35,730 bases of DNA from Halobellus clavatus (GTDB lineage: Archaea; Halobacteriota; Halobacteria; Halobacteriales; Haloferacaceae). Made by a program: the position numbers and the translations under genes. Positions 3,264-33,259 of this stretch are shown here, one piece after another; positions within the stretch are counted from its first letter, which is position 1, and each line of letters starts with the position of its first letter. The notes beneath the pieces are model-generated. The model searched no databases. It had not been told where the DNA came from and saw nothing but the letters and a program-made list of their open reading frames with translations. Where the stretch lies: assembly GCF_900107195.1 (NCBI RefSeq), contig NZ_FNPB01000021.1:1-35730 (forward strand). Reading direction: 5' to 3'.

Positions 3264-4454
3264 ATGAGTTACAAAATCGGACTCGTCGGCAAGCCCTCTG
3301 TCGGCAAGTCCTCGTTTTTCAACGCTGCGACGATGAACGACGTGCCGGAGGGTGCGTACCCGTTCACGACGATCGATCCCGCGGTCGGAGAGGCGTACGT
3401 CCGCGTCGAGTGTGCGGCTCCGGAATTCGACGAGACCTGCACGCCCTCAGTGGGTTTCTGCGACGACGGCACACGTTTCGTCCCGGTCAAACTCGTCGAC
3501 GTCGCGGGGCTGATCCCGGGCGCACACGAGGGGAACGGACTGGGGAATCAGTTCTTGACGGACCTCAACGAGGCCGACGTCCTCGTCCACGTCGTCGACT
3601 TCTCCGGGAAGACGGATCTGGAGGGCGAACCGACGACTGGCCACGACCCGCGGGACGACATCGACTTCCTCGAGGAGGAACTCGATATGTGGTATCTCGA
3701 CATCTTAGAGAAGGGTCTCGAGCGCTACCGATCGGGGTACAACGGCGAGGAGAACCACATCGAAGTGGACCTCGCAGAGCAGATGTCGGCGTTCAAGACG
3801 AACAAAGACGAGATCAAGCAGGTCCTGTTGGCCACGGACGCCGGTCTCGACCCCGACGAGTGGGACGAGGAGACGAAAGCCCGCGTCGCCCGCGAGATCA
3901 GAAAGCGAACCAAGCCGATCCTGATCGCGGCGAACAAGATGGACACGCCAGCGGCCCAGGAGAACTACGCGGAGATCACGGCCGACCCGGACCACGATCA
4001 TCTCACATTCGTCCCCACGAGCGCACACGCGGAGAAAGCGCTGAAGAAGGCCGACGAGGCGGACGTCGTCGACTATCGCCCCGGCGCGTCCTCGTTCGAG
4101 ATCGTCGGCGATCCCTCCGAGGAACAGGCCGCAGGCCTCGAGCAGATCCGCGAGTACGTCGAGTCCTTCGAGGGAACGGGCGTCCAGGCGGTCCTCGAAT
4201 CGGCGCTCTTCGACGTGATGGGCGCGATCGCGGTGTTCCCCGGGAGCGCCAACGGCCGATCCGACACGCAGGGCGTCTTTCGGGACTGTTTCATCCTCCC
4301 CGACGGGTCGACGACGGAGGACTTCGCGTATCACCTCCACTCTGACATCGGCGACGGCCTGCTGCACGGAATCGACTGCCGGTCGAACCGCCAGGTCGGT
4401 TCGACGCACGAGCTCGGCCACCGCGACGTCGTCGAGATCGTGACGACGAACTGA
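3264..4454 (+). CDS. ychF: YchF/OLA1-type P-loop NTPase (Obg superfamily)
   Basis: This is a translation-associated nucleotide-binding protein of the Obg/YchF group, cytosolic and conserved in archaea. Visible motifs are the P loop GKPSVGKSS (residues 9-17), the G3 motif DVAG (79-82) followed by LIPGAHEGNGLGNQFL, and NKMD (224-227) as the G4 motif. A helical insert lies between G3 and G4. The C-terminal 80 residues form the TGS domain that in relatives contacts ribosome-bound partners. The length of 396 residues is normal for the archaeal branch. A T-rich box (CGTTTTTGAG) lies about 30 bases before the ATG. YchF proteins often hydrolyse ATP rather than GTP; the base preference here cannot be decided by eye. 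Confidence 0.92.
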   Translation: MSYKIGLVGKPSVGKSSFFNAATMNDVPEGAYPFTTIDPAVGEAYVRVECAAPEFDETCTPSVGFCDDGTRFVPVKLVDVAGLIPGAHEGNGLGNQFLTDLNEADVLVHVVDFSGKTDLEGEPTTGHDPRDDIDFLEEELDMWYLDILEKGLERYRSGYNGEENHIEVDLAEQMSAFKTNKDEIKQVLLATDAGLDPDEWDEETKARVAREIRKRTKPILIAANKMDTPAAQENYAEITADPDHDHLTFVPTSAHAEKALKKADEADVVDYRPGASSFEIVGDPSEEQAAGLEQIREYVESFEGTGVQAVLESALFDVMGAIAVFPGSANGRSDTQGVFRDCFILPDGSTTEDFAYHLHSDIGDGLLHGIDCRSNRQVGSTHELGHRDVVEIVTTN

Positions 4455-4518: not shown

Positions 4519-5142
4519 ATGCCGCCGACTGAGACACCGCTGCGAGAGTTGACGGCGGGAATCGCCTCCGAGCAGGTTGCTCCGGCGGGGATCACGGCCG
4601 TGGCCGCGGCCGCCGCGATGGGGACCGCCCTGTGTGAGATGTGTTGCATTCACACGATCGAAGCCCAGCGCGCGACCCGGACCCTCGAAGACCTGGGAGA
4701 ACCGGTCGATCAGAGCGATTGCGACCCCACACACGCGAGCGATCACTCGCTCGAAGCGGTCCGGTCGAGGCTCGAGACGCAGCGGGAGACGCTGCTCACG
4801 CTCGCGGACCGCGACGCTGCCCTCGTTTCGGAGTTGTTTGCGGGCGAAGCCGCCCCGTCGGCCGAGACCCGACGGCAGGCGGCGAGGATCCCACTGGCCG
4901 TGATCGAAGCGGCCGTCGAGGTGTTAGCGGATGCCCCACTCGCGATCGAACGGGGTCGCCCCGGCGTCGCGGCAGACGCACGAACGGGGGCGCTCCTCGT
5001 CGAGGCGGGGTTGCGAGCATCGGCGGCGACAGTCCGATCGAATCTCGAAGGCGACGACACCGACGCGGCGACCGAGCTGCTAGACCGACTCGCGGCGGCT
5101 GAGCGGCGCGCGGCCGCGGTGGACCTGGACGGAATCGGTTAG
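4519..5142 (+). CDS. cyclodeaminase/cyclohydrolase family protein (FTCD C-domain type)
   Basis: This 207-residue, mostly helical protein resembles the formiminotetrahydrofolate cyclodeaminase/cyclohydrolase domain, which works on one-carbon units carried by folate. The N-terminal part shows the family pattern: LRELTAGIASEQVAPAG, a run of Ala in AAAAAMGTALCEM, then a long helix and a charged middle segment. The C-terminal half (IPLAVIEAAVEVLADAPLAIERG, then LLVEAGLRASAATVRSNL) matches the order of helices in that family. It stands alone between YchF and a histidine kinase. In haloarchaea such domains occur beside folate genes, but no other folate gene is present here. The family assignment is fairly firm, the substrate is not. 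Confidence 0.7.
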   Translation: MPPTETPLRELTAGIASEQVAPAGITAVAAAAAMGTALCEMCCIHTIEAQRATRTLEDLGEPVDQSDCDPTHASDHSLEAVRSRLETQRETLLTLADRDAALVSELFAGEAAPSAETRRQAARIPLAVIEAAVEVLADAPLAIERGRPGVAADARTGALLVEAGLRASAATVRSNLEGDDTDAATELLDRLAAAERRAAAVDLDGIG

Positions 5143-5176: not shown

Positions 5177-7057
5177 ATGCCGATATTTGGGGACTGTATG
5201 GGTTCCCAGATCCGGGTTCTGCACGTCGACGACGATCCCCAGTCTACGGATCTGGTCCGAGGGCTCTCGCGCCACAGCGATCGACTGGACGTCGACGCCG
5301 TCTCGACGGCCGCGGCGGCGCGTCAGGAGTTGCAGCGCGGCGGTATCGACTGCGTCGTCTCCGAATACGACCTGCGGGAGGAGACCGGAATCGATTTTCT
5401 CCGCGCGGTCCGCCCGGAGTACCCCGACCTCCCGTTTCTCCTCTTCACCAGCACGGGATCCGAAGAGATCGCGAGCCGAGCCATCTCCGCGGGCGTGACT
5501 GACTACCTCCGGAAGCGACCTGAGACCGGCCAGCTCGCCCTGCTGGCCAATCGGATCGAAAACGCGGTCGACCGCGTTCGCTCGGACCACGTCGCGGAGC
5601 GACGGACCCGCCGGCTCGAGACGCTCGTCAGTAACCTTCCGGGGATGGTCTATCGCTGCCGAAACGAGGGCGGATGGCCGATGGAGTACGTGGTCGGAGA
5701 GGTCGAGCGGCTCGTGGGATACGAACCGGAGGCACTGGAGTCGGGGGCGGTCAACTGGGGCGAGGAGGTTCTCCATCCCGACGATCGCGATCGCGCGTGG
5801 GAGGCCGTCCAGTCATCAATCGACGGCGACGAACCGTTCGAGGTGACGTATCGGGTACGGACTGCCGACGGCGACGTCAAGTGGCTGTGGGAACGGGGAC
5901 GCGTCGTCGAGGCGCCGTTCGGCGACGACGACTCCGCGATCCTGTGGGGCGACGGCTCGGCGATACCGAGGGACGGCGACGGTGCCGACACGGAGATGAT
6001 CGAGGGGTTCATCACCGACATCACCGAACGAAAGAAACGCGAATCGGAACTCCGCCGGAGCGAGCGCCGGTTTCAGGCCATTTTCGACGATCCGAACCTC
6101 CTCGTCGGACTCACGGCTCCGGACGGCACGGTCGAGGAAGTCAACACGACGGCCCTCCGGTACGTCGACGCGGATCGAGCGGACATCGTCGGAATGCCGC
6201 TTCCAGAGACACCGTGGTGGGATGGTGAATCGAACGTCGACGCGTGGGAGGCGATCGAGCAGGCGGCGAACGGCGAGTACGTCGAATTCGAGGCCGAATA
6301 CGCGGCGGAGGGCGAACGGCCGCTCTTCGTCGAAGGGTCGTTCCGCCCGGTGACCGACGAGAATGATGAGGTGACAGCACTCGTCGTGTCTGCGCGAGAC
6401 GTCTCCACGCGACGGCGGCGGGAGGCGGCACTCCAGCGGCAGCACGACCGGCTCAACGAGTACGCGAGCTTTGTCTCTCACGACTTTCAGAGTCCGATCT
6501 CGACGATCCGCGGACGGTTAGAACTGGCGCTGGAGACCGACGACCTGACGCACGTCGAGCGCGCGATCGACGCGGTCGAACGTGTCGACGAACTCCGGAC
6601 CGGCCTCGTGGAAACACTCCGCAGCGGGGACATCGTCCGCGAGACCGAGCTGGTCCGACTCACCGACGTGTTCGAGGACGTGTGGGCGACGACCGATCCC
6701 GGCGGCCACGCGTCCTACGAGGTCGTCGACGAACGCAGGATCGAAGCCGATCCCGAGGCGATCCGACGAGTGTTCGAAAACCTCGTCAGCAACTCGATCG
6801 AACACGGCGACGGCGACGTCACGGTGCGGGTGGGAGCGACTGCTGAGGGACTGTTCTACGAAGACGACGGGCCGGGTATCGCCCCCGGAATCAGAGACGA
6901 GGTGTTCTCGCCCGGATTCTCGACGAAGGCGGGCAGCGAGGGCATCGGTATGGGGATGGCGAGTGTCCGGCAGATCGTCGCCGCCCACGGCTGGACGATC
7001 GGCGTTGGGGCTGCCGAAACGCTCGGTGGTGCGCGCTTCGAGATCGTGACCGAGTGA
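5177..7057 (+). CDS. HTR-like hybrid sensor histidine kinase (receiver-PAS-PAS-HisKA-HATPase), receiver with Glu at the phospho site
   Basis: This is a soluble signalling kinase with no membrane helices. Order: an N-terminal receiver (about residues 12-125), a PAS domain (about 149-285), a second PAS (about 298-410), the dimerisation/phospho-acceptor helix with VSHDFQSP (His435), and the ATPase domain with N box NLVSNSIEHG, G1 EDDGPGI and G2 GIGMGMASV. In the receiver the acidic pocket (VDDDP), the Thr of FTSTG and the Lys of YLRK are kept. The residue aligned with the phosphorylated Asp is Glu63 (SEYDL), and the following loop lacks the usual Pro. Such a receiver may be fixed in one state. 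The ATG at 5198 (MGSQIRVL) is an equally good start and gives 619 residues. No partner gene is adjacent. Confidence 0.88.
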   Translation: MPIFGDCMGSQIRVLHVDDDPQSTDLVRGLSRHSDRLDVDAVSTAAAARQELQRGGIDCVVSEYDLREETGIDFLRAVRPEYPDLPFLLFTSTGSEEIASRAISAGVTDYLRKRPETGQLALLANRIENAVDRVRSDHVAERRTRRLETLVSNLPGMVYRCRNEGGWPMEYVVGEVERLVGYEPEALESGAVNWGEEVLHPDDRDRAWEAVQSSIDGDEPFEVTYRVRTADGDVKWLWERGRVVEAPFGDDDSAILWGDGSAIPRDGDGADTEMIEGFITDITERKKRESELRRSERRFQAIFDDPNLLVGLTAPDGTVEEVNTTALRYVDADRADIVGMPLPETPWWDGESNVDAWEAIEQAANGEYVEFEAEYAAEGERPLFVEGSFRPVTDENDEVTALVVSARDVSTRRRREAALQRQHDRLNEYASFVSHDFQSPISTIRGRLELALETDDLTHVERAIDAVERVDELRTGLVETLRSGDIVRETELVRLTDVFEDVWATTDPGGHASYEVVDERRIEADPEAIRRVFENLVSNSIEHGDGDVTVRVGATAEGLFYEDDGPGIAPGIRDEVFSPGFSTKAGSEGIGMGMASVRQIVAAHGWTIGVGAAETLGGARFEIVTE

Positions 7058-7083: not shown

Positions 7084-8097
7084 TCACTCGTCCGCCGAGG
7101 ACCGCGTGACGAAACTGAGTCGGTAGTCGTAGTACCCGCCGTCGTATCGGAGCATCGTCCGGCCGCCGTCCTCGACACCAGCGTCTTTCGCGACGTTGCC
7201 GTCGAGGTACGCGCGTTCGTGTATCGCCCGCAGTACTGCCCGGTAGGCCTCCGAGTACGGGTGTGCTTCCGTGTACTCCGACGCGGCGGCCTGTTCGACG
7301 ACGTCCACGGCGGCCGAGGAGCGGTCCTCGCGGTCGAATCGGGCGTCGACGAACTTCGCCCGAAGGACGGCTTCCATCTCCTCGGGGGCCGTCGCAACCG
7401 CCTCAGCGGTCGCTCGATACACCGGTTCGTAGAACGTCTCTCGCGTGATCTCGACTGCGTAGCGACGGTCGCGGTAGTCGACGAACGCCGCCGCGTCGTC
7501 GGACAGGAGGTCGCTCCGTTCGACCGCCTCGTCCGTTCGATAGACGTAGCCGCCGCGCTGGACGAGTCCCCACGGAACGCCTCCGCTGGTCCCGCGAGCG
7601 CGCGTCGCCATCTGTGCCACCCGCACGGCTACCGCGTCCACCTCCGGGAGTTGCTCGGCTGAAACTGCTTCGGGGGCGTCTCCGCCGTCCGTTTCGTCGA
7701 TCGCTGCCGCCTCGGTGAGTCGCAACACCGGATGCGTGGTTTCGACTTCGTCGACGACGATTGCGCCGAGTCGGTAGTACGTGCCGTTGTGGCGCGTGTA
7801 GACCGGATCCTCGGGAGCGGAGCCGAAGGGAGTGCGGTACTGCGTGGTGTATTCGGTCCCGTTCAGGCTCGCCTCGAAGGCCGCTTCGTCCAACTCGGAG
7901 CGCGTCTGTGAGAGGTCCGTGACGTAGGTTTCGCGGAGCGGGCCATCGGTGTGAGAGAGTGTCAACTGGAGAACGCGTTGCTCGTCGGGTGACTGAACGA
8001 CGTCGCTGACGGCACCGAGACACCCAGCAGAACTGAGCAAGGCACCTGCACCGAGTGCACCGAGGAACTGGCGTCTCACGGGCTGATTGTCTGTCAT
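7084..8097 (-). CDS. Tat-exported lipoprotein of unknown function
   Basis: This 337-residue lipoprotein was probably placed on the outer face of the membrane. From the ATG at 8097 the N terminus shows a twin-arginine signal (VRRQFLGALGAGALL) and a lipobox SSAGC with Cys26 as the attachment site. The mature part alternates short beta-rich pieces (LQLTLSHTDGPLRETYVTDL, YRLGAIVVDEVE, YAVEITRETFYEP) with helices and ends YDYRLSFVTR. I recognise no enzyme or binding-protein signature. Similar haloarchaeal lipoproteins are annotated as hypothetical. An ATG 27 bases further upstream is in frame but would put nine residues ahead of the twin Arg. A T-rich box lies about 35-40 bases before the start on this strand. 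Confidence 0.75.
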   Translation of the reverse strand: MTDNQPVRRQFLGALGAGALLSSAGCLGAVSDVVQSPDEQRVLQLTLSHTDGPLRETYVTDLSQTRSELDEAAFEASLNGTEYTTQYRTPFGSAPEDPVYTRHNGTYYRLGAIVVDEVETTHPVLRLTEAAAIDETDGGDAPEAVSAEQLPEVDAVAVRVAQMATRARGTSGGVPWGLVQRGGYVYRTDEAVERSDLLSDDAAAFVDYRDRRYAVEITRETFYEPVYRATAEAVATAPEEMEAVLRAKFVDARFDREDRSSAAVDVVEQAAASEYTEAHPYSEAYRAVLRAIHERAYLDGNVAKDAGVEDGGRTMLRYDGGYYDYRLSFVTRSSADE

Positions 8098-8166
8098 TGG
8101 AGGGCAGCGTTGGGTTCGGCGCAACGGGGTAAAAAAGGTCCGCGTTCGGTCACTCGTGATCTGGTT

Positions 8167-8280
8167 GCGACCGATCCTGGTCCCTCATCGGCCGATTACG
8201 ACCGCTCTCGATTACTCGTCGCCCGAATGCGACCGGTTCTGGTCGCCTGTCGGCCGATCGCGACCGCTCTCGATCACTCG
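8167..8280. repeat. imperfect tandem duplication, 62-bp period
   Basis: The segment 8167-8218 recurs at 8229-8280 with about nine differences in 52 bases; both contain CGACCGCTCTCGAT and TCGGCCGAT. The second copy ends inside the last codons of the universal stress protein gene, and the first copy lies just beyond it. The intergenic space between this gene and the lipoprotein gene was therefore partly made by duplicating the 3' end region. No gene is seen in 8098-8273. Confidence 0.75.
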
Positions 8281-8720
8281 ACCGGCGTCTTGATCACTGT
8301 CACGGGCATCTCCGCGAGACGGAGGACGCGGTCCGTGACGCTGCCCAGGAGGCTCCGGTACTCGTCGGGTCGCCGGCGGGTGCCCATCACCACGAGGTCG
8401 GCGCCGACCGCTCGCGCCACGTCGACGATGGTTTCGGGAGGCCGGCCGTGCCGAATGGTCGGTTCGACGTCGACCCCGGCCTCACGCGCCCGTTCCGCTA
8501 CCGTCTCGACAGCCTCCTCGCCGACTTCCTCCAGCCCGTGTTCGGGGCCCTCGCGTTCGTCGACGTACTCGTCGCCGCTGTACGCGTCGTACACGTCGCT
8601 GTCGACGACGAAGAGGACGTGCAGCGTCGCGTCGTGGTGCGCGGCGAGCTCGATCGCGTGGTCCGTCGCACGGTCCGATGCGGCTTCGCCACCCGTCGCG
8701 AGCAGGATGTCACTGTACAT
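8274..8720 (-). CDS. universal stress protein (UspA family)
   Basis: This single-domain Usp-type nucleotide-binding protein of 148 residues is cytosolic. It starts MYSDILLATGG, in place of the usual PTDGS turn, and ends with the ATP-binding region VVMGTRRRPDEYRSLLGSVT and PVTVIKTPVE. The second Gly of the G-x2-G-x9-G-S motif is replaced by Arg, so ATP binding may be altered. The insertion VDSDVYDAYSGDEYVDE between the first strand pair and the long helix is usual in haloarchaeal members. The ATG at 8720 is chosen because the protein then begins directly at the first beta strand, and TGCTTTTTG lies about 20-30 bases before it. The gene lies just upstream of the importer operon but reads away from it. 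Confidence 0.88.
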   Translation of the reverse strand: MYSDILLATGGEAASDRATDHAIELAAHHDATLHVLFVVDSDVYDAYSGDEYVDEREGPEHGLEEVGEEAVETVAERAREAGVDVEPTIRHGRPPETIVDVARAVGADLVVMGTRRRPDEYRSLLGSVTDRVLRLAEMPVTVIKTPVE

Positions 8721-9280
8721 ACGGGGAGGTAGCACAGGAGACGACAAAAAGCACGATGGTCAGACAGCTGACCGGAACACGGCCGCGACCGTAGCGTTTC
8801 ACCGAACGCGCTCGGCTGATCTCCTACGCCGGCAAAATAAACTTTTTTGTTGTTTCTTATTACAGACCCACAAGGAAATACGTACTGCGGCCGTATGAAA
8901 CGTATTTATCGTTAGTTATTAAAATCGTATGTTAGTTTCTTTTCCGCATTGCAACAGCCCCCGAGACAGCAGCGATCGGGTCCCGATCGGCACAGCATGC
9001 GGTGGAAGGAAGGTTTTTGTATAATGGTGACCGTATCGACATCGTGTTACGTGGTAGCAATAGCGGTCTCGGCCGCTTGCACGCGTCATCCGGGCGGATC
9101 TCGGACAGCACCCTGGTGGTGTGGTGGCGGTGACGTCCTCGCTTTGGGACCGCCGGTACGAAGGCTCAGGCAACACAGTGCGGCTCACACGGGAATTCAT
9201 ATGATCACGAACGACAGCGACGACGAACACGCGGCGACGAACCACTACGCTCGACGGACACGAACAGGGGTGCAGTGGTG
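8721..9280. other. long intergenic region before the ABC importer operon
   Basis: About 560 bases lie between the divergent stress protein and importer genes. Bases 8832-8945 are markedly AT-rich and hold an inverted repeat (separate entry). Bases 8950-9200 are GC-rich with open frames on both strands, but these are rich in Cys, His, Trp and Arg and do not look translated. Possible promoter boxes for the importer are GTTTTTGTATAATGG (9014-9028) and ATTCATATGA (9194-9203). The first would leave a leader of over 200 bases. I see no RNA gene. Confidence 0.5.
8876..8907. promoter_or_regulatory. inverted repeat AAATACGT-N16-ACGTATTT
   Basis: Perfect 8-base arms at 8876-8883 and 8900-8907 sit in the AT-rich part of the spacer between the stress protein and the importer operon. 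A second nested pair (ATACG / CGTAT) lies inside. The symmetry suggests a protein-binding site. The regulator is unknown and no transcription start has been shown. Confidence 0.4.
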
Positions 9281-16120: not shown

Positions 16121-16207
16121 ATGTGGAGACTCCCGGCGGGTGTACATAAATCGTGGTGCCGATTCCTCACGCTCGATACCGCACCCGAGACCGATCGCCC
16201 CACCCGC

Positions 16208-16218
16208 GATTTTATTAC
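16208..16218 (+). promoter_or_regulatory. TATA box of the 2-oxoacid dehydrogenase operon
   Basis: GATTTTATTAC lies about 30 bases before the ATG at 16247 and supports that codon, not the in-frame one at 16121, as the start of E1alpha. Confidence 0.6.
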
Positions 16219-16246
16219 CGGGCCCCGAAAATGTACCCGTCGTAGA

Positions 16247-17407
16247 ATGAGCGATAGAGAGTCAGACAGGCGAGTACCGTCGGCTGTCGGCGACGGTGGT
16301 GTGGGACTCCTCACCCAGGCGGATCTCTCGGTGCCGACCCACCAGATCGTCGACCCGGACGGTTCGTACGATCCCGAAGCCGTCCCAGATCTCTCCGCGG
16401 AGGAACTGTGCGACCTCTACCGGTGGATGGTGACCGACAGGGTGTTCTCCCGGCGGATGGTGAATATCCAGCGCCGCGGCGAGTTGGGGACGTTTGGCTC
16501 GACGCGGGGCCAGGAGGCGAGTATCATCGGGAGTGCGTTTACGCTCGAACCCCAGGATTGGTTGTACGTCGGTCGCGCCTGGACACCGATGTTTATGCGG
16601 GGGGCGTCGATGACGGATATGATCCACTTCTGGCGCGGCATCGAAACGGCCCAGCAGTCGTTCGCGAAGCAGAACTCCCAGATCGCGATCTCGATCGGCT
16701 CACACATCCCGCTCGTCGCCGGACTCGCGTGGGGGATGCAACTCGACGACGCAGACGCCGTGGCGACCGCTTACATCGGCGACGGCGCGACGAGCACCGG
16801 CGCGGCCCACGAGGGGATCAACCTCGCAGGCGCGCTGTCGTTGCCGGCGCTGTTCTTCTGTCAGAACAACCAGTACGCGATTTCGCTGAACGTCGAGGAG
16901 CAGACCGGCGCGAAGACGCTGGCCCAGAAGGCGCTGGCGTACGGCATCGATGCGATCCGCGTCGACGGCCAGGACGTCCTCGCGGTCTACGACGCCGTGC
17001 AGACGGCCAGAGAACGCGTGAAGGACGGGAATCCAGTCTTCGTCGAATCGGTCACGTACCGGCTGGACGCCCACACCACGAGTGACGACCCGACTCGGTA
17101 TCGTGACGAGGAGGAAGTCCAGGAGTGGGAGGCGAAAGACCCCATCGAACGGTACCGCTCGTTCCTGCAGTCCGAGGGCCTGTGGTCGCGGATTGACCAC
17201 GATTCGATCGTCGACGACATCGAAACCGAGTTCGACGAGGCACTCGCGACTGCCGACGAACTGGAGGAGCGACGGGTCAGGGAGCTGTTCGCACACGTCT
17301 ACGACGAACTCCCGTCGGAACTCTCCCGGCAGCTGGAGGCGTTCGAGGCACTGCTCGAAGAGCGACCGGAGATGGACGACTACATCGAACAGCGGCCCAA
17401 GGGGTGA
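16247..17407 (+). CDS. 2-oxoacid dehydrogenase E1 component, alpha subunit
   Basis: This is the thiamine-diphosphate-binding half of the E1 decarboxylase of a pyruvate/branched-chain-type complex, 386 residues. The cofactor motif is complete: GDG at 178-180 and NN at 207-208, with the typical STGAAHEGINLAGAL between them. RGELGTFGSTRGQEA and WTPMFMRGASM give the family N-terminal half, and RLDAHTTSDDPTRYR the C-terminal signature. It starts at 16247 (MSDRESD); the 42 extra codons of the longer frame cross the promoter. The next gene overlaps it by four bases (GTGA). In haloarchaea pyruvate is oxidised mainly by a ferredoxin oxidoreductase, so these complexes probably serve other 2-oxoacids. 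Confidence 0.9.
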   Translation: MSDRESDRRVPSAVGDGGVGLLTQADLSVPTHQIVDPDGSYDPEAVPDLSAEELCDLYRWMVTDRVFSRRMVNIQRRGELGTFGSTRGQEASIIGSAFTLEPQDWLYVGRAWTPMFMRGASMTDMIHFWRGIETAQQSFAKQNSQIAISIGSHIPLVAGLAWGMQLDDADAVATAYIGDGATSTGAAHEGINLAGALSLPALFFCQNNQYAISLNVEEQTGAKTLAQKALAYGIDAIRVDGQDVLAVYDAVQTARERVKDGNPVFVESVTYRLDAHTTSDDPTRYRDEEEVQEWEAKDPIERYRSFLQSEGLWSRIDHDSIVDDIETEFDEALATADELEERRVRELFAHVYDELPSELSRQLEAFEALLEERPEMDDYIEQRPKG

Positions 17408-18375
17408 CTATGCAGGCAACAATCGTTCAGGCGGTCAACGAGGCGCTGCACGGAGCGATGGAACGCGACGATCGGGTCGTCGTCTTCGGCGAGGACGTCG
17501 CCGAGAGCGGTGGGGTGTTCCGCGCGACCGACGAACTGCTGGAGGAGTTCGGGAGCGACCGCGTCGTCGACACGCCGCTCTCGGAGATCGCGATCGTCGG
17601 GGGCGCGACCGGGATGGCGATGTACGGCTACCGCCCCGTCGTCGAAATCCAGTTCTCGGGGTTTCTCCCCCCGGCGTTCGACCAACTGGTCACGAACACC
17701 AGCCGGATCCGCTGGCGAACGCGCGGTGAACTCACGGCGCCGATGGTGGTCCGGATGCCCTACGGGGCGGGCGTCCGCGCTCTCGAGCACCATTCCGAGA
17801 GCCTCGAAGGTGCCTACGCGCACATCCCCGGTCTCAAAGTCGCCGTCCCCAGTACGCCCGCAGACACGAAGGGGCTGCTCACGGCGGCGATCCGCGACCC
17901 CGATCCGGTCCTGTTTATGGAACCGAAGCGGATCTACCGCTCGATCCGCGAGGAGCTCCCGGAGGGCGACCACGAGGTCCCGCTGGGTGAGGCCGCGGTC
18001 CGCCGGGAGGGTGACGCCGTCACCGTCGTCGCCTGGGGGGCGATGATGCCGCCGACGCTCGAAGCGGTCGACGACAGCGGAATCGACGCCGAAGTGATCG
18101 ATCTCCGGACGATCTCGCCGATGGACACAGAAACCGTCGTCGAGTCGGTCAAAAAGACCGGCCGCTGTGTCGTCGTCCACGAGGGGCCGCGGACGCTCGG
18201 CGTGGGGAGCGAACTGATCGCCCGAATCAACGACGAGGCGCTGATGTACCTCGAGGCACCGATCGAGCGGGTGACTGGCTTCGACACGCAGGTCCCGCTG
18301 CTCTCGATGGAGGACTTCTACCTCCCGCATCCGCCGCGAATCCTCGACGGAATCGAGCGCGCGCTGACGGCCTAA
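17404..18375 (+). CDS. 2-oxoacid dehydrogenase E1 component, beta subunit
   Basis: This is the partner subunit of E1, 323 residues. Family marks are VVVFGEDVAESGGVFRATD, DTPLSEIAIVGGATGMAM (with the TPP-contacting Glu), EIQFSGFLPPAFDQL, GAGVRALEHHSES in place of the usual HSQS, and the transketolase C-terminal domain with VVAWGAMM and VVVHEGPRTLG. GTG at 17404 overlaps the E1alpha stop; an ATG two codons later (17410) is the alternative start and would remove only Met-Thr. A 72-base gap with an AT-rich box separates it from E2. Gene order alpha-beta-E2-E3 is the classic one. Confidence 0.92.
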   Translation: MTMQATIVQAVNEALHGAMERDDRVVVFGEDVAESGGVFRATDELLEEFGSDRVVDTPLSEIAIVGGATGMAMYGYRPVVEIQFSGFLPPAFDQLVTNTSRIRWRTRGELTAPMVVRMPYGAGVRALEHHSESLEGAYAHIPGLKVAVPSTPADTKGLLTAAIRDPDPVLFMEPKRIYRSIREELPEGDHEVPLGEAAVRREGDAVTVVAWGAMMPPTLEAVDDSGIDAEVIDLRTISPMDTETVVESVKKTGRCVVVHEGPRTLGVGSELIARINDEALMYLEAPIERVTGFDTQVPLLSMEDFYLPHPPRILDGIERALTA

Positions 18376-18447
18376 CTCACCGGTTCGTCTCGGTTCGCTC
18401 GGCCTTTCCAGGGAAATACTGAAAGGGTTGTGCGTCGACCGGCCGGT

Positions 18448-20127
18448 ATGGTCGCACGAACCTTCGAGTTGCCGGACCTCGGTGAGGGAATCGCCGAGGG
18501 CGAACTCGTCTCCTGGCTCGTCAACGAGGGAGACACTGTCGAGGAAGACCAGGTCATCGCCGAAGTCGAGACCGACAAGGCGCTCGTCGAAATTCCCAGC
18601 CGGTACGACGGGACCGTCGAGGAACTCCACTACGACGAGGGCGACACCGTTCCCGTGGACGCGACGTTCGTGACCTTCGAGGTCGACGACGAAGACAGCG
18701 GGGCGGCCGCTGGTTCGGGTGCCGCGAGCGACACCGACGATGCCGAGGGTGTCGGTGCAGGTGCCGAGAGTGCCGCCGGCGACGACGCAGGAGCGAACAC
18801 CGGGACGGCAGCGGCCGAAGCCACCGCAGGGACCACAGACGCGACCGGCGCGCAGGACCCCTCTGTTACCAACGGGACAGAGCCGACGGTGAGCGAGCCG
18901 CCAGTCCCGGACGAACGGGTGTTCGCGTCGCCGAGCAAGCGCTCGCTCGCCCGGGAACTCGGTATCGACATCGGGCAGGTCCAGGGGTCGGGGCCGGGCG
19001 GTCGCGTGATGGCCGCCGACCTGCGGGCGTACGCCGAATCGGCCGGCGACCCGACCGTGACCCAGGCGAGTGATGGTGTCGCCGAGCAGACGACTGCCGA
19101 GCGGGAGGAACCAGTCGTCGTCGACGAGGGCGGCGGCCGTGAGCGGACGCTCGCGATGCCAGCGACGCGGAAGTTGGCCGGCGAACTCGGCGTGAACCTC
19201 GACGCGGTCCCCGCCAGCGAGGAGCGTGACGGTGAACCGTTCGTGACGCCCGATGACGTCCAGCGGTACGCGGAGCGGGGCGGCAAACCCGAGACCGCCG
19301 ACAGTGCGGCGGCGACGACCGCGCCCGAACCGACGACCGACGCGGACGCCGCACCCGCGACGAACGGGTCGGTAGAGGGCGCCTCTGGAGCCGCGAGCGC
19401 CGGCGGGAACGGCGAGACAGCCCAATCGGACCGCCCGGGCGAGCGTGTCCCCTACCGCGGGGTCCGACGGACGATCGGGGAGCAGATGGCGCAGTCCAAG
19501 TTCACGGCGCCGCACGTCTCCCACCACGACGAGTTCGACGCGACCGAACTCGTCGAGTTGCGCGAGGAACTCGATGCGGCCGCCGGCGAGGACGTGAAAC
19601 TGACGTACCTCCCGTTCGTCGTGAAGGCGATCACCAGCGCGCTGAAAGAGCACCCGTACCTCAACGCCAGCCTCGACGAGGACGCCGAGGAGATCATCCT
19701 CCACGACGAGTACAACATCGGCATCGCCGTCGCGACCGACGCCGGCCTGATGGTTCCCGTCGTCGACGACGCCGATACGAAGAGTCTCAAACAACTGGCC
19801 ACCGAAATCGCGGATCTCGCGACGCGGGCGCGGAACCGAGAGATCCAGCCGGCGGAGATGCAGGGCGGAACGTTCACCATCACGAACGTCGGGGTCATCG
19901 GCGGCGAGTTCTCCTCACCCATCATCAATCACCCCGAAGCCGCCATCTTCGCGATGGGGCCGATACAGAAGCGTCCGTGGGTCGTCGACGACGAGGTGGT
20001 CGCTCGGACCACGATGCGCTTCTCGATGTCGGTCGATCACCGGCTCGTCGACGGCGCTGACGCCGCGGAGTTCTCGAATCACGTGAAGGAACTGCTGGCG
20101 GATCCGCTCCCGCTCCTGCTGGAGTAG
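18448..20127 (+). CDS. 2-oxoacid dehydrogenase E2, lipoyl acyltransferase with two subunit-binding domains
   Basis: This is the core acyltransferase of the complex, 559 residues. An N-terminal lipoyl domain carries the lipoylated Lys in ETDKALVEIP (Lys44). An Ala/Gly/Asp-rich linker follows. One clear peripheral subunit-binding domain lies at about 158-197 (ASPSKRSLARELGID, GSGPGGRV). A second, weaker one lies at about 235-277 (AMPATRKLAGELGVN, VTPDDVQRYAE), where the GTGPGGR-type loop is replaced by a charged stretch. After another linker the catalytic domain starts near 334 and holds the active DHRLVDG (His531, Asp535, Gly536). The ATG at 18448 is preferred to a GTG 18 bases upstream. No lipoate ligase or lipoyl synthase is nearby, so lipoylation must come from elsewhere. 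Confidence 0.93.
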   Translation: MVARTFELPDLGEGIAEGELVSWLVNEGDTVEEDQVIAEVETDKALVEIPSRYDGTVEELHYDEGDTVPVDATFVTFEVDDEDSGAAAGSGAASDTDDAEGVGAGAESAAGDDAGANTGTAAAEATAGTTDATGAQDPSVTNGTEPTVSEPPVPDERVFASPSKRSLARELGIDIGQVQGSGPGGRVMAADLRAYAESAGDPTVTQASDGVAEQTTAEREEPVVVDEGGGRERTLAMPATRKLAGELGVNLDAVPASEERDGEPFVTPDDVQRYAERGGKPETADSAAATTAPEPTTDADAAPATNGSVEGASGAASAGGNGETAQSDRPGERVPYRGVRRTIGEQMAQSKFTAPHVSHHDEFDATELVELREELDAAAGEDVKLTYLPFVVKAITSALKEHPYLNASLDEDAEEIILHDEYNIGIAVATDAGLMVPVVDDADTKSLKQLATEIADLATRARNREIQPAEMQGGTFTITNVGVIGGEFSSPIINHPEAAIFAMGPIQKRPWVVDDEVVARTTMRFSMSVDHRLVDGADAAEFSNHVKELLADPLPLLLE

Positions 20128-20203
20128 CGGGCGGTTCCACCCCGAAACGGAGTGCAGGCGGAGACGGATGATTTTTTGAGGGCTCGAACGAGAGCATCAG
20201 CGT

Positions 20204-21628
20204 ATGGTAATGGGCGATATCGCGACGGCGACGGACCTCCTCGTCATCGGTGCGGGACCCGGCGGCTACGTCGCCGCGATCCGCGGCGCACAGCTCGGAC
20301 TGGACACCACGCTGGTGGAAAAGGACGCCTACGGCGGTGCCTGTCTCAACCGCGGCTGCATCCCGTCGAAGGCGTTCATCCACGGCGCGGACGTCGCCCA
20401 CGAGGCAGCGAACGCGGAGGATCTGGGTATCCACGCCGACCCGGCGATCGATATGCGGCAGATGCAGCAGTGGAAAGCAGGCGTCGTCGATCAGCTCACC
20501 TCCGGCGTCGAGAAGCTCTGCAAGGCCAACGGTGTCTCCCTCCTCGAAGGGACGGCCGCCTTCGAGGACGAACACACCGCACGCATCGCTCACGGTGGCG
20601 AGGGACAGGGAATGGAGACCGTCGAATTCGATCAGGCTATCATCGCGACGGGGTCGCGACCGCTCGCAATCCCCGGCTTCGACTTCGCTGACGACCCGGT
20701 GCTCTCCTCGGCCGAACTCCTCCAGATGGAGTCGACACCGGACAGCCTCGTCGTCGTCGGTGCGGGCTACATCGGTATGGAACTGTCGACGATGCTGGCA
20801 AAACTCGGCACGGACGTGACCGTTGTCGAGATGCTCGACGACGTCTTGCCCGCATACGAAGACGACATTGCCCGGACCGTTCGGTCACGGGCAGAAGACC
20901 TCGGAGTCGACTTCCACTTCGGTGAGGGTGCGACAGGCTGGGAGCACGGGGGCGACGGCGTCGTCGTGACGACCGAGACCGACGACGGTGAGACCGCAGA
21001 GTACCACGGCGATGCCGTCCTCGTCGCCGTCGGACGGCAGCCGGTGACTGACACGCTGGAACTCGAATCGATCGGCCTCGAACCGACCGAGAACGGTTTC
21101 ATCGAGACTGACGACCGGGCCCGGACCGCGGTCGAGAACGTGTTCGCGGTCGGTGACGTCGCCGGTGAGCCGATGCTGGCACACAAAGCCAGCGCCGAAG
21201 GAATCGTCGCCGCCGAAGTCGCCGCGGACGAACCAGCCGCGCTCGACCAGCAGGTGATCCCCGCGGCGGTGTTCACTGATCCCGAGATCGCGACGGTCGG
21301 GATGACAAGCCAGAAGGCCGAGGCCGAGGGCTTTGACCCCGTGGTCGGTGAGATGCCGCTCCGAGCCAGCGGTCGGGCGCTCTCGATGGGCGAGTCGGAG
21401 GGCTTCGTCAGAATCGTCGCCGACGAATCGAGCGGGATGATCCTCGGTGGCCAACTCGTCGGTCCGAACGCCGCAGAACTCGTTGCCGAGGTCGCCCTCG
21501 CCATCGAGATGAGTGCCACACTCGAAGATGTCGCTGGCACGGTTCACACGCATCCGACGCTCGCTGAGGCTGTGATGGAGGCGGCGGAGAACGCCCAGGG
21601 ACAGGCGATTCACACCCTCAACCGCTAA
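20204..21628 (+). CDS. lpdA: dihydrolipoyl dehydrogenase (E3)
   Basis: This is the FAD-containing enzyme that reoxidises dihydrolipoamide with NAD, 474 residues. Seen: the FAD loop GAGPGG, the redox disulfide CLNRGC (Cys47, Cys52), the NAD loop VGAGYIGMELS, the second FAD segment NVFAVGDVAGEPMLAHKAS, and the C-terminal active pair in HTHPTLAEAV (His450, Glu455). The start is ATG 20204, with a second ATG two codons later. GATTTTTTGAGG, 26-35 bases upstream, is a likely separate TATA box, so E3 may also be made apart from E1/E2. It completes the four-gene complex and would also serve any glycine cleavage system in the cell. Confidence 0.95.
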   Translation: MVMGDIATATDLLVIGAGPGGYVAAIRGAQLGLDTTLVEKDAYGGACLNRGCIPSKAFIHGADVAHEAANAEDLGIHADPAIDMRQMQQWKAGVVDQLTSGVEKLCKANGVSLLEGTAAFEDEHTARIAHGGEGQGMETVEFDQAIIATGSRPLAIPGFDFADDPVLSSAELLQMESTPDSLVVVGAGYIGMELSTMLAKLGTDVTVVEMLDDVLPAYEDDIARTVRSRAEDLGVDFHFGEGATGWEHGGDGVVVTTETDDGETAEYHGDAVLVAVGRQPVTDTLELESIGLEPTENGFIETDDRARTAVENVFAVGDVAGEPMLAHKASAEGIVAAEVAADEPAALDQQVIPAAVFTDPEIATVGMTSQKAEAEGFDPVVGEMPLRASGRALSMGESEGFVRIVADESSGMILGGQLVGPNAAELVAEVALAIEMSATLEDVAGTVHTHPTLAEAVMEAAENAQGQAIHTLNR

Positions 21629-27213: not shown

Positions 27214-28188
27214 TCAGAACAGTGCCGCTGTGGATGAGAGGATCTGCGCGGGGCCGCCGACCTCCCAGACGTCGGTGTCGACGCCGACATCGGCCACCGC
27301 CGATTCGACCCGGTCGACGTGCGCGTCGGTCGTGTTCACGTACACGCTCGCGCCGGTGTCGGTCGAGAAGTACACCGGGATGTCGGCCTCCTCACGGAGT
27401 TCGCGGACGGCGTTGAACACGGCAATGGTGTCCGGCTGCCAGTAAACCCACCCGGCCGGCCCTGTCATCGTCGTCGCCGTGAGCGACAGCGAATCGTGCT
27501 CGGCCAGTTCGAAGGCACGCTCGAAGTCGGCGTCGTACAGCGCGTCGCGCATCGCGTCGATCTGATGGTGGACGTGCGCCATCCGCGCCTGGAACATATG
27601 GCTCTGGGCGGCCTCGCGGTGTGCCTCTTCGGTTTCTTTGTACGCCGGCACGTGTGCGGCGACGGTTCGCAGTTCGTCTTCGAGGTCGGTCTCGATCCGT
27701 TCTGCTCGGCAATCCTCGTCGTTCATCCCCGAATACAGGTGCGAGAACGCACCAGTCACGGCGCGCGCGGCCGACGAGGAGCCGCGACGGGCGATCGTCG
27801 ATACCGCCGGCCGAGTCAGATCGAGACCGGCAGCGTCCGCGAGCGCCATCGCCGCGGCGGCGAATCCCGACGACGAGGACCCGAAGCCGATGTTCGAGGG
27901 GAAGGAGTTCTCCGATTCGAGCCGTACTGGGTGGTCGATGTCGGCCAGTTCGCGGACGTGGTCGACGACGGCGTCGATGCGTTCGGCGCCGCGGCCCTCG
28001 ACGCGTTCCCCGCCGATGCGGTAGACGTCCTCGGTGGCGTCCGGCCGGAACTCGACCGTCGTCGTCGTTGCGCTCGGGGCAGTACAGACGCTGATGCTGT
28101 CGTGATACGGGAGGCGGAGTTCCTCGTCGCGCATCCCGTGGTACTTGATCAGACCCTGGATCGGGTGCGCTCTCGCAGTCGCCTTCAT
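27214..28188 (-). CDS. phosphomevalonate decarboxylase (haloarchaeal mevalonate pathway)
   Basis: This GHMP-fold decarboxylase of 324 residues acts in making isoprenoid precursors for archaeal lipids. In haloarchaea the homologue annotated as diphosphomevalonate decarboxylase was shown in Haloferax volcanii to act on mevalonate 5-phosphate, giving isopentenyl phosphate. Seen here: ATAPIQGLIKYHG-like N terminus (AHPIQGLIKYHGM), the nucleotide/phosphate loop SFPSNIGFGSSSSGFAAA (near residues 95-112), RRGSSSAARAVTGAF and STDTGASVYV with the catalytic Asp at 277. The ATG at 28188 is set by family length and by the box CGTTTAACCT (28211-28220), 27 bases upstream. A longer frame to 28446 overlaps the DoxX gene and is not real. 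No other pathway gene is adjacent. Confidence 0.9.
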   Translation of the reverse strand: MKATARAHPIQGLIKYHGMRDEELRLPYHDSISVCTAPSATTTTVEFRPDATEDVYRIGGERVEGRGAERIDAVVDHVRELADIDHPVRLESENSFPSNIGFGSSSSGFAAAAMALADAAGLDLTRPAVSTIARRGSSSAARAVTGAFSHLYSGMNDEDCRAERIETDLEDELRTVAAHVPAYKETEEAHREAAQSHMFQARMAHVHHQIDAMRDALYDADFERAFELAEHDSLSLTATTMTGPAGWVYWQPDTIAVFNAVRELREEADIPVYFSTDTGASVYVNTTDAHVDRVESAVADVGVDTDVWEVGGPAQILSSTAALF

Positions 28189-28415
28189 ACACTCACGCGT
28201 GAGCGACGCGAGGTTAAACGTCCCGATGGCGACGCCGGTCCCATTGGCGACGTCCAGTGGGACGAGCAGTGAGACGACCGAGACACTCCGAGGTACCGAT
28301 GCCAATACAGCGTCGACACTTCCGCAATACAAAAATGCGTCTGGTGAGGCCTGTCTCTCACGTCGGACTGCTGTTCGGGGGGGCGTCGACGGACGCCTCG
28401 ATGTGACGGCCGGCG

Positions 28416-28859
28416 TTAGAGGCCCACGTTGAGCGCGTACGGCCACGCACTCCCCGAAAGCGCGAGGAAGGCCAGCGCGCCGCCAAGCAGCGCGACGTTC
28501 TTCAGGAAGTTCGTCATCTCACTCTGCTGTTGATCCGGCGGGGCCGCCCAGAAGTCGTGGATCGTCGGCGTCGCGACGAGCAGGAACAGCGCGATTGCGC
28601 CCGCTGAGAGGGCCGGATACGCACCGATCGCGATCCCGAGACCTCCGGCCATCAACATCCCGCCGCTGAAGAGTACCGCGGCCCGTCCCGCGGGCAGGCC
28701 CTTCGCTTCGGCATATCCTGCCAACTGATCGACGCTCTGGAAGTGATTCAGTCCCATAAATGCCAGCACGACGCCGAACAGCACGCGCCCCAGAAGGAAC
28801 GCGACGCCGTTCGCACTGGTGTCCAGCTGCAGTACCATCGCCGAGATATCTGGTATCAT
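28416..28859 (-). CDS. DoxX family membrane protein
   Basis: This small integral membrane protein of 147 residues has four hydrophobic helices: about 18-38 (VAFLLGRVLFGVVLAFMGLNHF), 60-80 (AAVLFSGGMLMAGGLGIAIG), 85-100 (LSAGAIALFLLVATPTIHDFW) and 120-138. GRVLFGVVLAFMGLNHF and TPTIHDFW are the usual DoxX/SURF4-like marks. DoxX proteins are linked with quinone-dependent redox work or membrane redox homeostasis; the role of this branch is not defined. TATATTAG at about 28884-28893 stands some 30 bases before the ATG. It is followed on the same strand by the phosphomevalonate decarboxylase gene after 227 bases that hold no gene I can support. Confidence 0.85.
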   Translation of the reverse strand: MIPDISAMVLQLDTSANGVAFLLGRVLFGVVLAFMGLNHFQSVDQLAGYAEAKGLPAGRAAVLFSGGMLMAGGLGIAIGAYPALSAGAIALFLLVATPTIHDFWAAPPDQQQSEMTNFLKNVALLGGALAFLALSGSAWPYALNVGL

Positions 28860-30694: not shown

Positions 30695-33259
30695 ATGCGT
30701 CTCGATTACCAACGGTTCGTCGACTGGGCGGACGACAACATCGTCAACCGTCCGAAGAAAGTGATGCTGGTGTTCCTGCTGGTCACGCTCGCCTTCGCGG
30801 GCGGACTGGGGGGAGTCTCGACCGAGTCCGGGACCCAGCAGTTCGCCGAGGACGTGCCAGCGGCCGACGCGAGCGAACGGATCGAGAACGAGTTCCTCTC
30901 CGTCTTCGGGGAGGACCCGGGTAGCACGCAGCTCGTCCAGCGCGAGCAGAACGTGCTCTCGAAGCGGTCGATGCTCTCGATGCTCAGAGCCCAGGAGGCG
31001 CTCGAGGATCGGAGCGATATGTACGTCTCCAGTACGTCCTCGGCCGCAGGGACGGTCGCACGAACGATTGATCCCTCGGCGACGACGCTGGAGGAGCAGA
31101 TCATCGCGCTGGAGGGCGCGACCCAGGGCGAAATCCGCCGAGCCGTACAGGAAAACGCCGACAATCCCGGCTTCACCGGCACGCTGAGTAACGACTTCAA
31201 CCGCGGGTCGGCGTCGGCATCGGCGACGATCGGGGTCGTTACCCACGACCTCCCGCAGGGGGCTGGCGGTGGCACCGCCGGCCAGTCGGGAGACAGTCCG
31301 CTGACGTCTATTCAGAACAATGCGCAGCGAATCATCGACACGGAACTGGATACCGACATCACGGTCTTCGGGAGCGGCATCATCGCCGACGAGTTCGGGA
31401 CCGTCATCACGGATTCGCTGTTGATAGTTACCCCCGCCGCGGTGATTCTCATCGTGGGCTTTCTGATCGTGGCCTACCGCGACCTCTTAGATCTCATCTT
31501 GGGGATCATCTCGCTGCTGATGGCGGTGATCTGGACGTTCGGGTTCCTGGGACTGGCGGGCATCCCGTTCAATCAGATTATGATCTCGGTCCCGCCGCTG
31601 TTGCTCGCGGTTGGGATCGACTTCGGCATCCACGCCATCAATCGGTATCGCGAGGATCGCGCGACCGGTCTCGACGTCGATTCGGCGATGACTGTCGCGA
31701 CCGATCAGTTGCTCGTCGCGTTCTTCATCGTCACGGGGACCACCGTCATCGGGTTCCTCTCGAATCTCACCTCCAGCCTGCCGCCGATCCGCGACTTCGG
31801 GATCGTCGCAGGTGTCGGGATTATGTTCACCTTCTTCATCTTCGGAATCTTCCTCCCGGCGGCGAAGGTGTGGCTCGACCGCAACCGCGAGGGGTGGCCG
31901 ATCCCGACGTTCAGCCAGCAGCCGCTCGGCAAGGAGGGATCAACCCTCGGCGAGGTACTCGCAGTCGGCGTCTTCGCCGCGCGGAAGGTTCCAGTGGTCG
32001 TGTTGATTCTCGCCTTGGTGTTCAGCGCGGGGGCCGCCGGGTACGCGACCGGAGTCGACACGTCGTTCTCACAGGAGGACTTCCTCCCACCGGAGGAGGT
32101 CTCGCCGTTCCTGAAGTCGCTCCCCGAACCGTTTGCACCCAGTGACTACGGCGTCGTCGGGACGCTGAACTTCCTCGAAGACAAGTTCACCACCTCACAG
32201 GGGGGGTCAGTCACCATATACGTTGAGGGGCGGATGGAGAACGATGCCGCCCTCGAGCGAATCTACCGGGCGGGAGAAGATCCACCCGAGGAGTTCGTCG
32301 ACGCCGGTAATAGACGCGCCGAATCGACGAGTATCGTCACGATCATCCAGGATTACGCCGATAGAGATCCGGAGTTCGCCGCGCTGGTCGAGCGGAACGA
32401 TCAAAACGACAACGGCGTCCCCGACGACAACCTCCCGACGATCTATCGGGAACTCGAACGATCGCCGGTCGGCGATCGGGCGTCGGAGTACCTCTCCGAC
32501 GACCATCGGAGCGCCCGGATCGTCTACTCCGTGACCGCCGATGCCTCGGACAAGGAGGCGACAGCGGCGGCTCGGGACGTAGCGGGCGAGTTCCGGTCGG
32601 ACGCGACGGCCACTGGCAACACCGTCGTCTTCCAACAGGTGTCTGATCTGATCTTCGAGTCGGCGATCACGAGTCTCGCGCTCGCGCTCGGAGCGACGGT
32701 GCTGTTCCTCCTGTTCATCTACTGGGTCCTCGAAGGCCTGCCCTCGCTGGGCTTCGCGAACCTCGTGCCGATCGTGGTCGCCGTTTCCGCCGTCGCGGGG
32801 ACGATGCGAGTCCTCGGCATTTCGTTCAACGCGTTCACGGCGACGATCCTCTCGCTGACGATCGGTCTGGGGATCGACTACTCGGTCCACATCGTCCATC
32901 GGTTCATCGACGAGCGGCGCGAGAACCCGCTCTTCGAGGCACTCAAACGAACCGTCATCGGAACGGGCGGGGCGCTGTTGGGAAGTATGGCGACGACCGC
33001 GTTCGGGATCGGCGTTCTCGTCTTGGCGGTGCTGTCGGTCCTCGGGCAGTTCGGGCTGCTGACGGCGATCTCGATCATCTACTCGTTCCTCGCCTCACTG
33101 CTCGTGCTTCCCTCGACGCTCGTCATCTGGGACTGGTTCGTCAACGACGATCCCGACGTGGCGATGGGACATCCCGGCGAGGAGGGGACGGGAACCGTCG
33201 AGTCAGACGACCCACTGGGGCCGAGCCCCGAAACCGACCTTGAGGGAGGGTCGGCGTGA
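30695..33259 (+). CDS. RND/MMPL superfamily transporter
   Basis: This 854-residue membrane protein is built as two similar halves. Each half has one helix (first at VMLVFLLVTLAFAGG), a large external domain and a block of about five helices. The two blocks start near residues 239 and 655. The equivalent motifs AVGIDFGIHAINRY (Asp309) and GLGIDYSVHIVHRF (Asp728) lie in the helix that carries the proton-relay Asp in MMPL/HAE-type pumps. The sequence resembles the archaeal SSD/MMPL group rather than AcrB. Likely cargo is lipid-like or hydrophobic, but this is not visible from sequence. The gene lies between the COG1361 gene (3-base gap) and a TrmB regulator gene (4-base overlap), so the three are one operon. 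Confidence 0.9.
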   Translation: MRLDYQRFVDWADDNIVNRPKKVMLVFLLVTLAFAGGLGGVSTESGTQQFAEDVPAADASERIENEFLSVFGEDPGSTQLVQREQNVLSKRSMLSMLRAQEALEDRSDMYVSSTSSAAGTVARTIDPSATTLEEQIIALEGATQGEIRRAVQENADNPGFTGTLSNDFNRGSASASATIGVVTHDLPQGAGGGTAGQSGDSPLTSIQNNAQRIIDTELDTDITVFGSGIIADEFGTVITDSLLIVTPAAVILIVGFLIVAYRDLLDLILGIISLLMAVIWTFGFLGLAGIPFNQIMISVPPLLLAVGIDFGIHAINRYREDRATGLDVDSAMTVATDQLLVAFFIVTGTTVIGFLSNLTSSLPPIRDFGIVAGVGIMFTFFIFGIFLPAAKVWLDRNREGWPIPTFSQQPLGKEGSTLGEVLAVGVFAARKVPVVVLILALVFSAGAAGYATGVDTSFSQEDFLPPEEVSPFLKSLPEPFAPSDYGVVGTLNFLEDKFTTSQGGSVTIYVEGRMENDAALERIYRAGEDPPEEFVDAGNRRAESTSIVTIIQDYADRDPEFAALVERNDQNDNGVPDDNLPTIYRELERSPVGDRASEYLSDDHRSARIVYSVTADASDKEATAAARDVAGEFRSDATATGNTVVFQQVSDLIFESAITSLALALGATVLFLLFIYWVLEGLPSLGFANLVPIVVAVSAVAGTMRVLGISFNAFTATILSLTIGLGIDYSVHIVHRFIDERRENPLFEALKRTVIGTGGALLGSMATTAFGIGVLVLAVLSVLGQFGLLTAISIIYSFLASLLVLPSTLVIWDWFVNDDPDVAMGHPGEEGTGTVESDDPLGPSPETDLEGGSA

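Follow-up and report, generated by a model that had tools for sequence, protein, structure and literature searches.

A histidine kinase of Halobellus clavatus with glutamate at the phospho-acceptor position of its N-terminal receiver domain

Results

The kinase gene and its surroundings

The window analysed here, a stretch of 35,730 nucleotides from the haloarchaeon Halobellus clavatus, carries a gene for a histidine kinase of 626 amino acids, which lies between a stand-alone cyclodeaminase-like protein and a conserved protein on the opposite strand (Table 1). Pfam places Response_reg at residues 14-120, PAS_3 at 171-245, PAS_4 at 310-414 and HATPase_c at 525-623; a HisKA match at 427-473 reaches 23.1 bits, below the Pfam cut-off of 26.9. 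This order, in which a receiver is followed by PAS or GAF domains and then by HisKA and HATPase, is that of the REC-HisK proteins. The N-terminal domain is recognised as a receiver by PF00072 (57.2 bits, cut-off 30.2), and its AlphaFold model displays the five alternating strands and helices of the (beta-alpha)5 fold. The kinase side of the protein looks active as judged from sequence, because its characteristic residues (His435, Asn535, Asn539, Asp563, Gly565, Gly567, Gly591 and Gly593) are invariant among 23 aligned proteins. Translation may begin at Met8 (position 5198), from which the orthologs align, and the phospho-site residue, numbered 63 throughout, would then be Glu56.

Table 1. Coordinates of the kinase gene, its receiver pocket and its neighbours in the window
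Feature	Position	Strand	Remark or basis
YchF-related GTPase	3264..4454	+	upstream syntenic neighbour
Stand-alone FTCD_C (cyclodeaminase-like) protein	4519..5142	+	between ychF and kinase; beside kinase in 9/9 orthologous loci; only a weak match to FchA cyclohydrolase model
REC-PAS-PAS-HisKA-HATPase histidine kinase	5177..7057	+	626 aa; ORF from ATG 5177, Pfam
N-terminal receiver domain (Response_reg, residues 14-120)	5216..5536	+	Pfam E 2.2e-15; PF00072 genome search
Asp18-Asp19, acidic pair retained	5228..5233	+	alignment
Glu63 (GAA), phospho-Asp site, end of beta-3	5363..5365	+	ortholog alignment, AlphaFold model, PDB match
Arg67 at D+4, usual Pro replaced	5375..5377	+	alignment
Thr91, switch Thr retained	5447..5449	+	alignment
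Lys113 retained	5513..5515	+	alignment
Alpha-5 (residues 118-153), one continuous predicted helix to PAS1	5528..5635	+	AlphaFold; pLDDT as low as 68 at 141-150
His435, predicted phospho-accepting His of kinase	6479..6481	+	invariant, 23-row alignment
Conserved protein without Pfam match	7084..8124	-	beside kinase in 5/9 orthologous loci; lipoprotein-like N-terminal signal by eye
Universal stress protein	8274..8747	-	downstream syntenic neighbour, 9/9 orthologous loci

Farther along the window lie a row of genes assigned by Pfam to a 2-oxoacid dehydrogenase complex (16121-21628; E1 component parts, E2 and a dihydrolipoamide dehydrogenase-like protein), a diphosphomevalonate decarboxylase-like protein on the minus strand (27214-28446) and, on the plus strand, an MMPL-family protein followed by a TrmB-type regulator (30695-34071).

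The phospho-acceptor position and the rest of the pocket

A sequence-only reading of the window had proposed that this receiver bears Glu where the phosphorylated Asp is expected, with the acidic pair, the switch Thr and the Lys retained, and both parts of the proposal are borne out. The motif aligns without internal gaps, Glu63 falling on the Asp of the orthologous S/A/T-D-H/Y, and an Asp stands opposite it in the best PDB sequence match, the dual sensor histidine kinase 6oap_A. In the AlphaFold model, where beta-1 spans residues 12-17, beta-3 59-63, beta-4 87-91 and beta-5 109-112, it is the last residue of beta-3; Asp18/Asp19, Glu63, Thr91 and Lys113 all fall at or just past strand ends, an arrangement like that of CheY. 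Gly71 at D+8 and Tyr110 at K-3 are present as well. The receiver thus departs from the canonical phosphorelay set of five residues (the acidic pair, D, T and K) at D alone. GAA, which serves for 25 of the 70 Glu residues of the protein, is nothing unusual for this gene and differs by one base from the codons found at the site in the orthologs (GAT in six, GAC in three). Since Glu occupies the phospho site, ordinary Asp phosphorylation would, on sequence grounds, be impossible there, and with a residue other than Asp at the D position the domain is an aspartate-less receiver (ALR), and so a pseudo-receiver, by the definition in the available text of PMC12632262.

Within an alignment of 22 kinases (the window protein and 21 others), Glu occurs at the site in two, the second being a paralogous receiver kinase of the window genome (L029, L052 in the alignment; G000:C15:143444-145186) whose receiver has an Asp-Gly acidic pair and Arg in place of Lys.

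The usual Pro is missing at D+4, as had also been noted, and Arg67 stands there; its absence is not special to the Glu-bearing protein, since seven of the nine Asp-bearing orthologs lack it too. With Pro present in L034 and L035 alone and absent in 8 of 10 orthologs, its loss is not tied to Glu. In the wider survey described below, Pro is present in 2 of 7 receivers with Glu and in 99 of 110 with Asp (Fisher p 0.0005). We do not rely on this association: the rows are related, two of those with Glu are sisters, and most Asp-bearing orthologs of the window protein lack Pro. Asp65, at D+2, had been named as a residue whose alignment to the phospho site would overturn the assignment; it can be rejected as a relocated site, because D+2 is acidic in most of the Asp-bearing orthologs (8 of 9, with Arg in L034).

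Orthologs at the same locus

A search of the genus, to which Halobellus inordinatus, captivus, rufus and rarus also belong, covered 17 genomes with the kinase protein and gave a match at E 1e-60 or better in 11, in 10 of which (the window's included) the gene occupies the same locus. The FTCD_C protein, the kinase and the stress protein are common to the window and all nine other loci; YchF falls inside the fetched stretch in eight of the nine (in L037 it lies farther upstream on the same contig), and the protein at 7084-8124 recurs in five. For comparison with the YchF-related GTPase at 3264-4454, five other genomes of the genus (L179-L183) show only a divergent YchF-like GTPase (~40-45% identity), and close and divergent YchF copies are both present in four genomes of three sister genera.

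All nine other syntenic orthologs have Asp at the phospho site, and Glu is found in the window protein alone. The sequence-only reading had named ordinary Asp in relatives, as a sign of a single-strain change, among the findings that would overturn it, and ordinary Asp, not a Glu fixed in a clade, is what the genomes examined display. Because the other nine all have Asp, the Glu is, by sequence comparison, private to the window lineage among these genomes; this lineage has a long branch, of 0.45 substitutions per site in a joint tree, and species not sampled may share the residue. L032, the nearest ortholog, groups with the window protein to the exclusion of the others (support 99, unrooted tree); support is weak (57 and 62) for the deep split that places the outgroups L042 and L043.

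The pocket varies among the Asp-bearing proteins as well. The acidic pair is Glu-Ser instead of Asp-Asp in six orthologs (L034, L035, L036, L038, L039 and L040), and the full set of five residues is kept in three (L032, L033 and L037), so that by the published definition seven of the ten sequences, the window's included, are pseudo-receivers. The pocket has therefore failed in two ways, six proteins lacking the second acidic residue and the window protein having Glu for Asp, and the receiver itself has stayed in all ten.

Several of the related genes show further irregularities. In L034 (Halobellus rarus, minus strand) an in-frame TAG interrupts the C-terminal ATPase region, which marks either a pseudogene or a sequence error; in Halobellus captivus (L062, 4853-4928) a 24-bp repeat of 3.2 copies (94% match) enlarges the beta3-alpha3 loop near the phospho site; and PAS1 is absent from L038, L039 and L040.

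Glutamate-bearing receivers across the order

A survey of 134 loci yielded 129 distinct receivers; the set is not random, 80 of its loci having been fetched with beta-5 and alpha-5 motifs. At the site, 117 of them have Asp, 7 have Glu (the window receiver among them), 2 have Gly, and Ser and Arg occur once each, with one receiver unaligned. The acidic Asp pair, Thr and Lys are all kept in 5 of the 7 Glu receivers, the window's among them; in a larger set of 34 Glu receivers, the acidic pair, Thr or Ser, and Lys are complete in 10, with 6 unscorable at the acidic pair owing to gaps. The alignment-based search for relatives used the best 80 of 539 confirmed matches. A pattern derived from the single protein matched 5 stretches of the genome contigs, with no relative among them.

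At the DNA level, 293 genomes of the order were scanned. A pattern for the Glu motif (D-C-x-x-S/T-E-Y/H, then a spaced Gly; its S/T position also admits Cys, Arg and Trp) matched 131 of them, the Asp version matched 262, and a reversed control pattern gave no match. Each of the 30 Glu matches that were fetched as loci falls within an open reading frame that encodes the motif, and 27 pass the receiver profile over at least 90 residues. Within the window's family (61 genomes) there are 299 Asp matches and 31 Glu matches, the latter in 27 genomes. The window genome itself has 31 receiver matches, of which 24 are readable by the profile (22 Asp, 2 Glu) and the other seven are unscored.

By eye, the Glu receivers form several distinct groups, with and without a kinase H-box as recognised by a simple text pattern, and some of these groups include two or more species with Glu (L124 and L134 of Haloarchaeobius; L187-L189, one of them assigned to Haloarcula argentinensis). 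Fitch parsimony on a tree of 148 receivers gives 12 changes between Asp and Glu, a rough figure for short sequences in a Glu-enriched set. Receivers of this sort are thus widespread in the order, and the one in the window is not unusual in kind. One further group, in eight genomes with the genus label g35 (L145, L147, L150, L152, L153, L154, L158 and L159), combines the Glu site with an Asp-Pro acidic pair (DCVVTE-H/Y).

Conservation, spacing and rates along the receiver

Across the ten orthologs, mean pairwise identity is highest in the alpha4-beta5 segment (0.85), followed by beta-4 (0.73) and beta1-alpha1 (0.66), and is lower in alpha-5 (0.65), beta3-alpha3 (0.57) and beta2-alpha2 (0.34). 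Strong conservation of alpha4-beta5 seems general among haloarchaeal REC-HisK receivers in the 134-locus survey, an impression inflated by the 80 loci that were fetched with beta-5 and alpha-5 motifs. In all ten proteins, the three that lack PAS1 included, 16 residues separate the conserved Val of alpha-5 from the beginning of the following PAS domain; as the loss of PAS1 was probably one event, the kept spacing in those three counts as one observation. The AlphaFold model of the whole kinase, built from a 23-row alignment, has a mean pLDDT of 82.5 and a pTM of 0.46, which leaves the arrangement of the domains uncertain. A Foldseek search with the full model returned mostly sensor kinases and PAS proteins, and little on the receiver.

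On the stem of the six Glu-Ser orthologs, the ratio of receiver to kinase branch length has a bootstrap median of 6.3 under a fixed topology (95% range 2.4-532, the upper bound arising because kinase lengths approach zero in some replicates). The ratio is 1.2 on the window branch (bootstrap 0.65-2.35) and 0.87 on that of its sister L032 (0.36-2.07). A speed-up of the window receiver relative to its own kinase is not significant (relative to L032 the ratio of ratios spans 0.43-5.2 and exceeds 1 in 70% of 100 bootstraps); no change of selection on the window receiver is thereby demonstrated.

Discussion

We hold, with slightly better than even confidence, that the window encodes a REC-HisK kinase whose receiver turned into an aspartate-less pseudo-receiver on the lineage of this species, and that the domain was kept as a phosphorylation-independent module for dimerisation and helix coupling. 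Having lost the usual route of phosphoryl uptake, the receiver would be retained because its alpha4-beta5(-alpha5) face still pairs, and the geometry of the dimer would travel along a continuous alpha-5 helix, itself a feature of the predicted model, into PAS1, then PAS2 and then the kinase core, so that control would lie mainly with the PAS domains. Thr91 and Lys113 are both in place, and with them Glu63 may in addition bias the receiver towards the active dimer. The earlier suggestion of a binding or dimerisation module in place of a phosphorelay input is plausible to this extent, with alpha4-beta5 as the best conserved part of the domain and the spacing from alpha-5 to PAS constant. The dimerisation of the receiver and its loss of phosphorylation are what we infer from these features, and the coupling through the helix would follow by analogy with the Rec-controlled kinase LvrB.

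A somewhat improbable alternative is that the receiver is vestigial and decaying under weak constraint, the Glu being one tolerated change without effect on signalling. The orthologs differ in the pocket residues that they have lost, and the enlarged loop in Halobellus captivus, the in-frame stop codon in L034 and the missing PAS1 of three proteins are what such a history would leave behind; yet the receiver persists at 10 of 10 loci with its alpha4-beta5 identity and a fixed helix spacing, and the other four pocket residues of the window protein are intact. The same residues (Thr91, Lys113 and Asp18/Asp19), kept along with Tyr110, and the retention of the rest of the pocket in 5 of the 7 surveyed Glu receivers speak for a special case of our preferred account, in which Glu63, Thr91 and Lys113 mimic phospho-Asp and hold permanently on a receiver that is regulated in its sisters. 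According to the available text of PMC12632262, many response regulators are partly switched on by Glu, and no residue is more common than Glu at the D position of ALRs (26% in PMC4395418). Both sources, as far as available, report that Glu activates some receivers and not others, the former calling the phosphomimic idea attractive, yet disproved in some cases, and the latter describing ChxR as still active after its Glu alone is changed; in our larger set, moreover, the full pocket is present in only 10 of 34 Glu receivers (6 of the 34 unscorable at the acidic pair). We regard the permanently-on receiver as doubtful, and the role of Glu63 as a phosphomimic as speculative.

It is highly improbable that phosphorylation has passed to another residue, be it Ser62 (D-1), Asp65 (D+2) or the Glu itself. 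Ser62 adjoins the site, and CheY mutants altered at the D site are known to be phosphorylated elsewhere; the acidic residue at D+2 is, however, shared with nearly all Asp-bearing orthologs. The available portion of PMC4395418 notes that phosphorylation of Glu has been demonstrated, but its authors were aware of no such modification that contributes to bacterial signalling. An error of sequencing or assembly, with GAT or GAC read as GAA, is very unlikely: the difference is a single base in one genome, but the protein sits on a long branch with many other differences and an intact frame, none of which is decisive at this base.

Returning to the pseudo-receiver as a dimerisation and coupling module, a bolder form of this account, rather unlikely in our judgement, would have receiver phosphorylation abandoned in two ways at one Halobellus locus, six species having lost the second acidic residue and one having exchanged Asp for Glu, with the dimer face and spacing kept; the family would then offer a natural series of kinases under Rec control that work without receiver phosphorylation, and Glu63 would be hard-wired 'on' in the window's species. 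The value of the finding lies in the comparison set at one locus and not in the Glu residue itself: one genus offers, at one gene place, three full pockets, six broken acidic pairs and one Glu, a small set that could probe whether a kinase-borne receiver needs phosphorylation at all.

Comparison with known systems

The window receiver belongs to a known class, the aspartate-less receivers, in a known architecture, that of REC-HisK. ALRs, a subset of the pseudo-receivers, lack the phospho-Asp and most often have Glu instead (PMC4395418 and PMC12632262, in the sections available), and the window receiver is alike, with Thr, Lys and the K-3 Tyr kept; what sets it apart from ALRs in general is its N-terminal position on an archaeal kinase. 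The available text of PMC12632262 gives about 10-15% of archaeal receivers as lacking Asp, and its authors state there that they are aware of no published functional study of archaeal pseudo-receivers. It also describes Glu at the D position in plant pseudo-response regulators and in the Rim15p receivers of Ascomycota; in these Glu is typical of the group, whereas in Halobellus it is found in one of ten orthologs.

Among archaeal REC proteins, REC-HisK make up almost 20%, none of them characterised at the time (Galperin et al. 2018, PMC5847659, in the part available); the Asp is conserved in the majority of these, not in all, and up to 40% may go unphosphorylated. The window kinase has the same order of N-terminal REC, PAS and HisKA-HATPase and does not differ from them in kind, being one more case, with Glu.

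A mechanistic parallel is LvrB of Leptospira, a Rec-controlled kinase with full-length structures, in which, as reported in the available text of PMC13269768, the Rec domains pair, once phosphorylated, in a 4-5-5 dimer, and a coiled coil of the alpha5-alphaS helices frees the catalytic domain. Both kinases begin with a REC whose alpha-5 continues into a signalling helix, which feeds the kinase core; in the window kinase this continuity is predicted (helix 118-153, pLDDT 68 at 141-150). LvrB is a Rec-DHp-CA protein without PAS domains and is activated by phosphorylation of its Rec, whereas the window kinase has two PAS domains in between and Glu at the site; we infer that its receiver holds or biases an LvrB-like dimer without phosphorylation.
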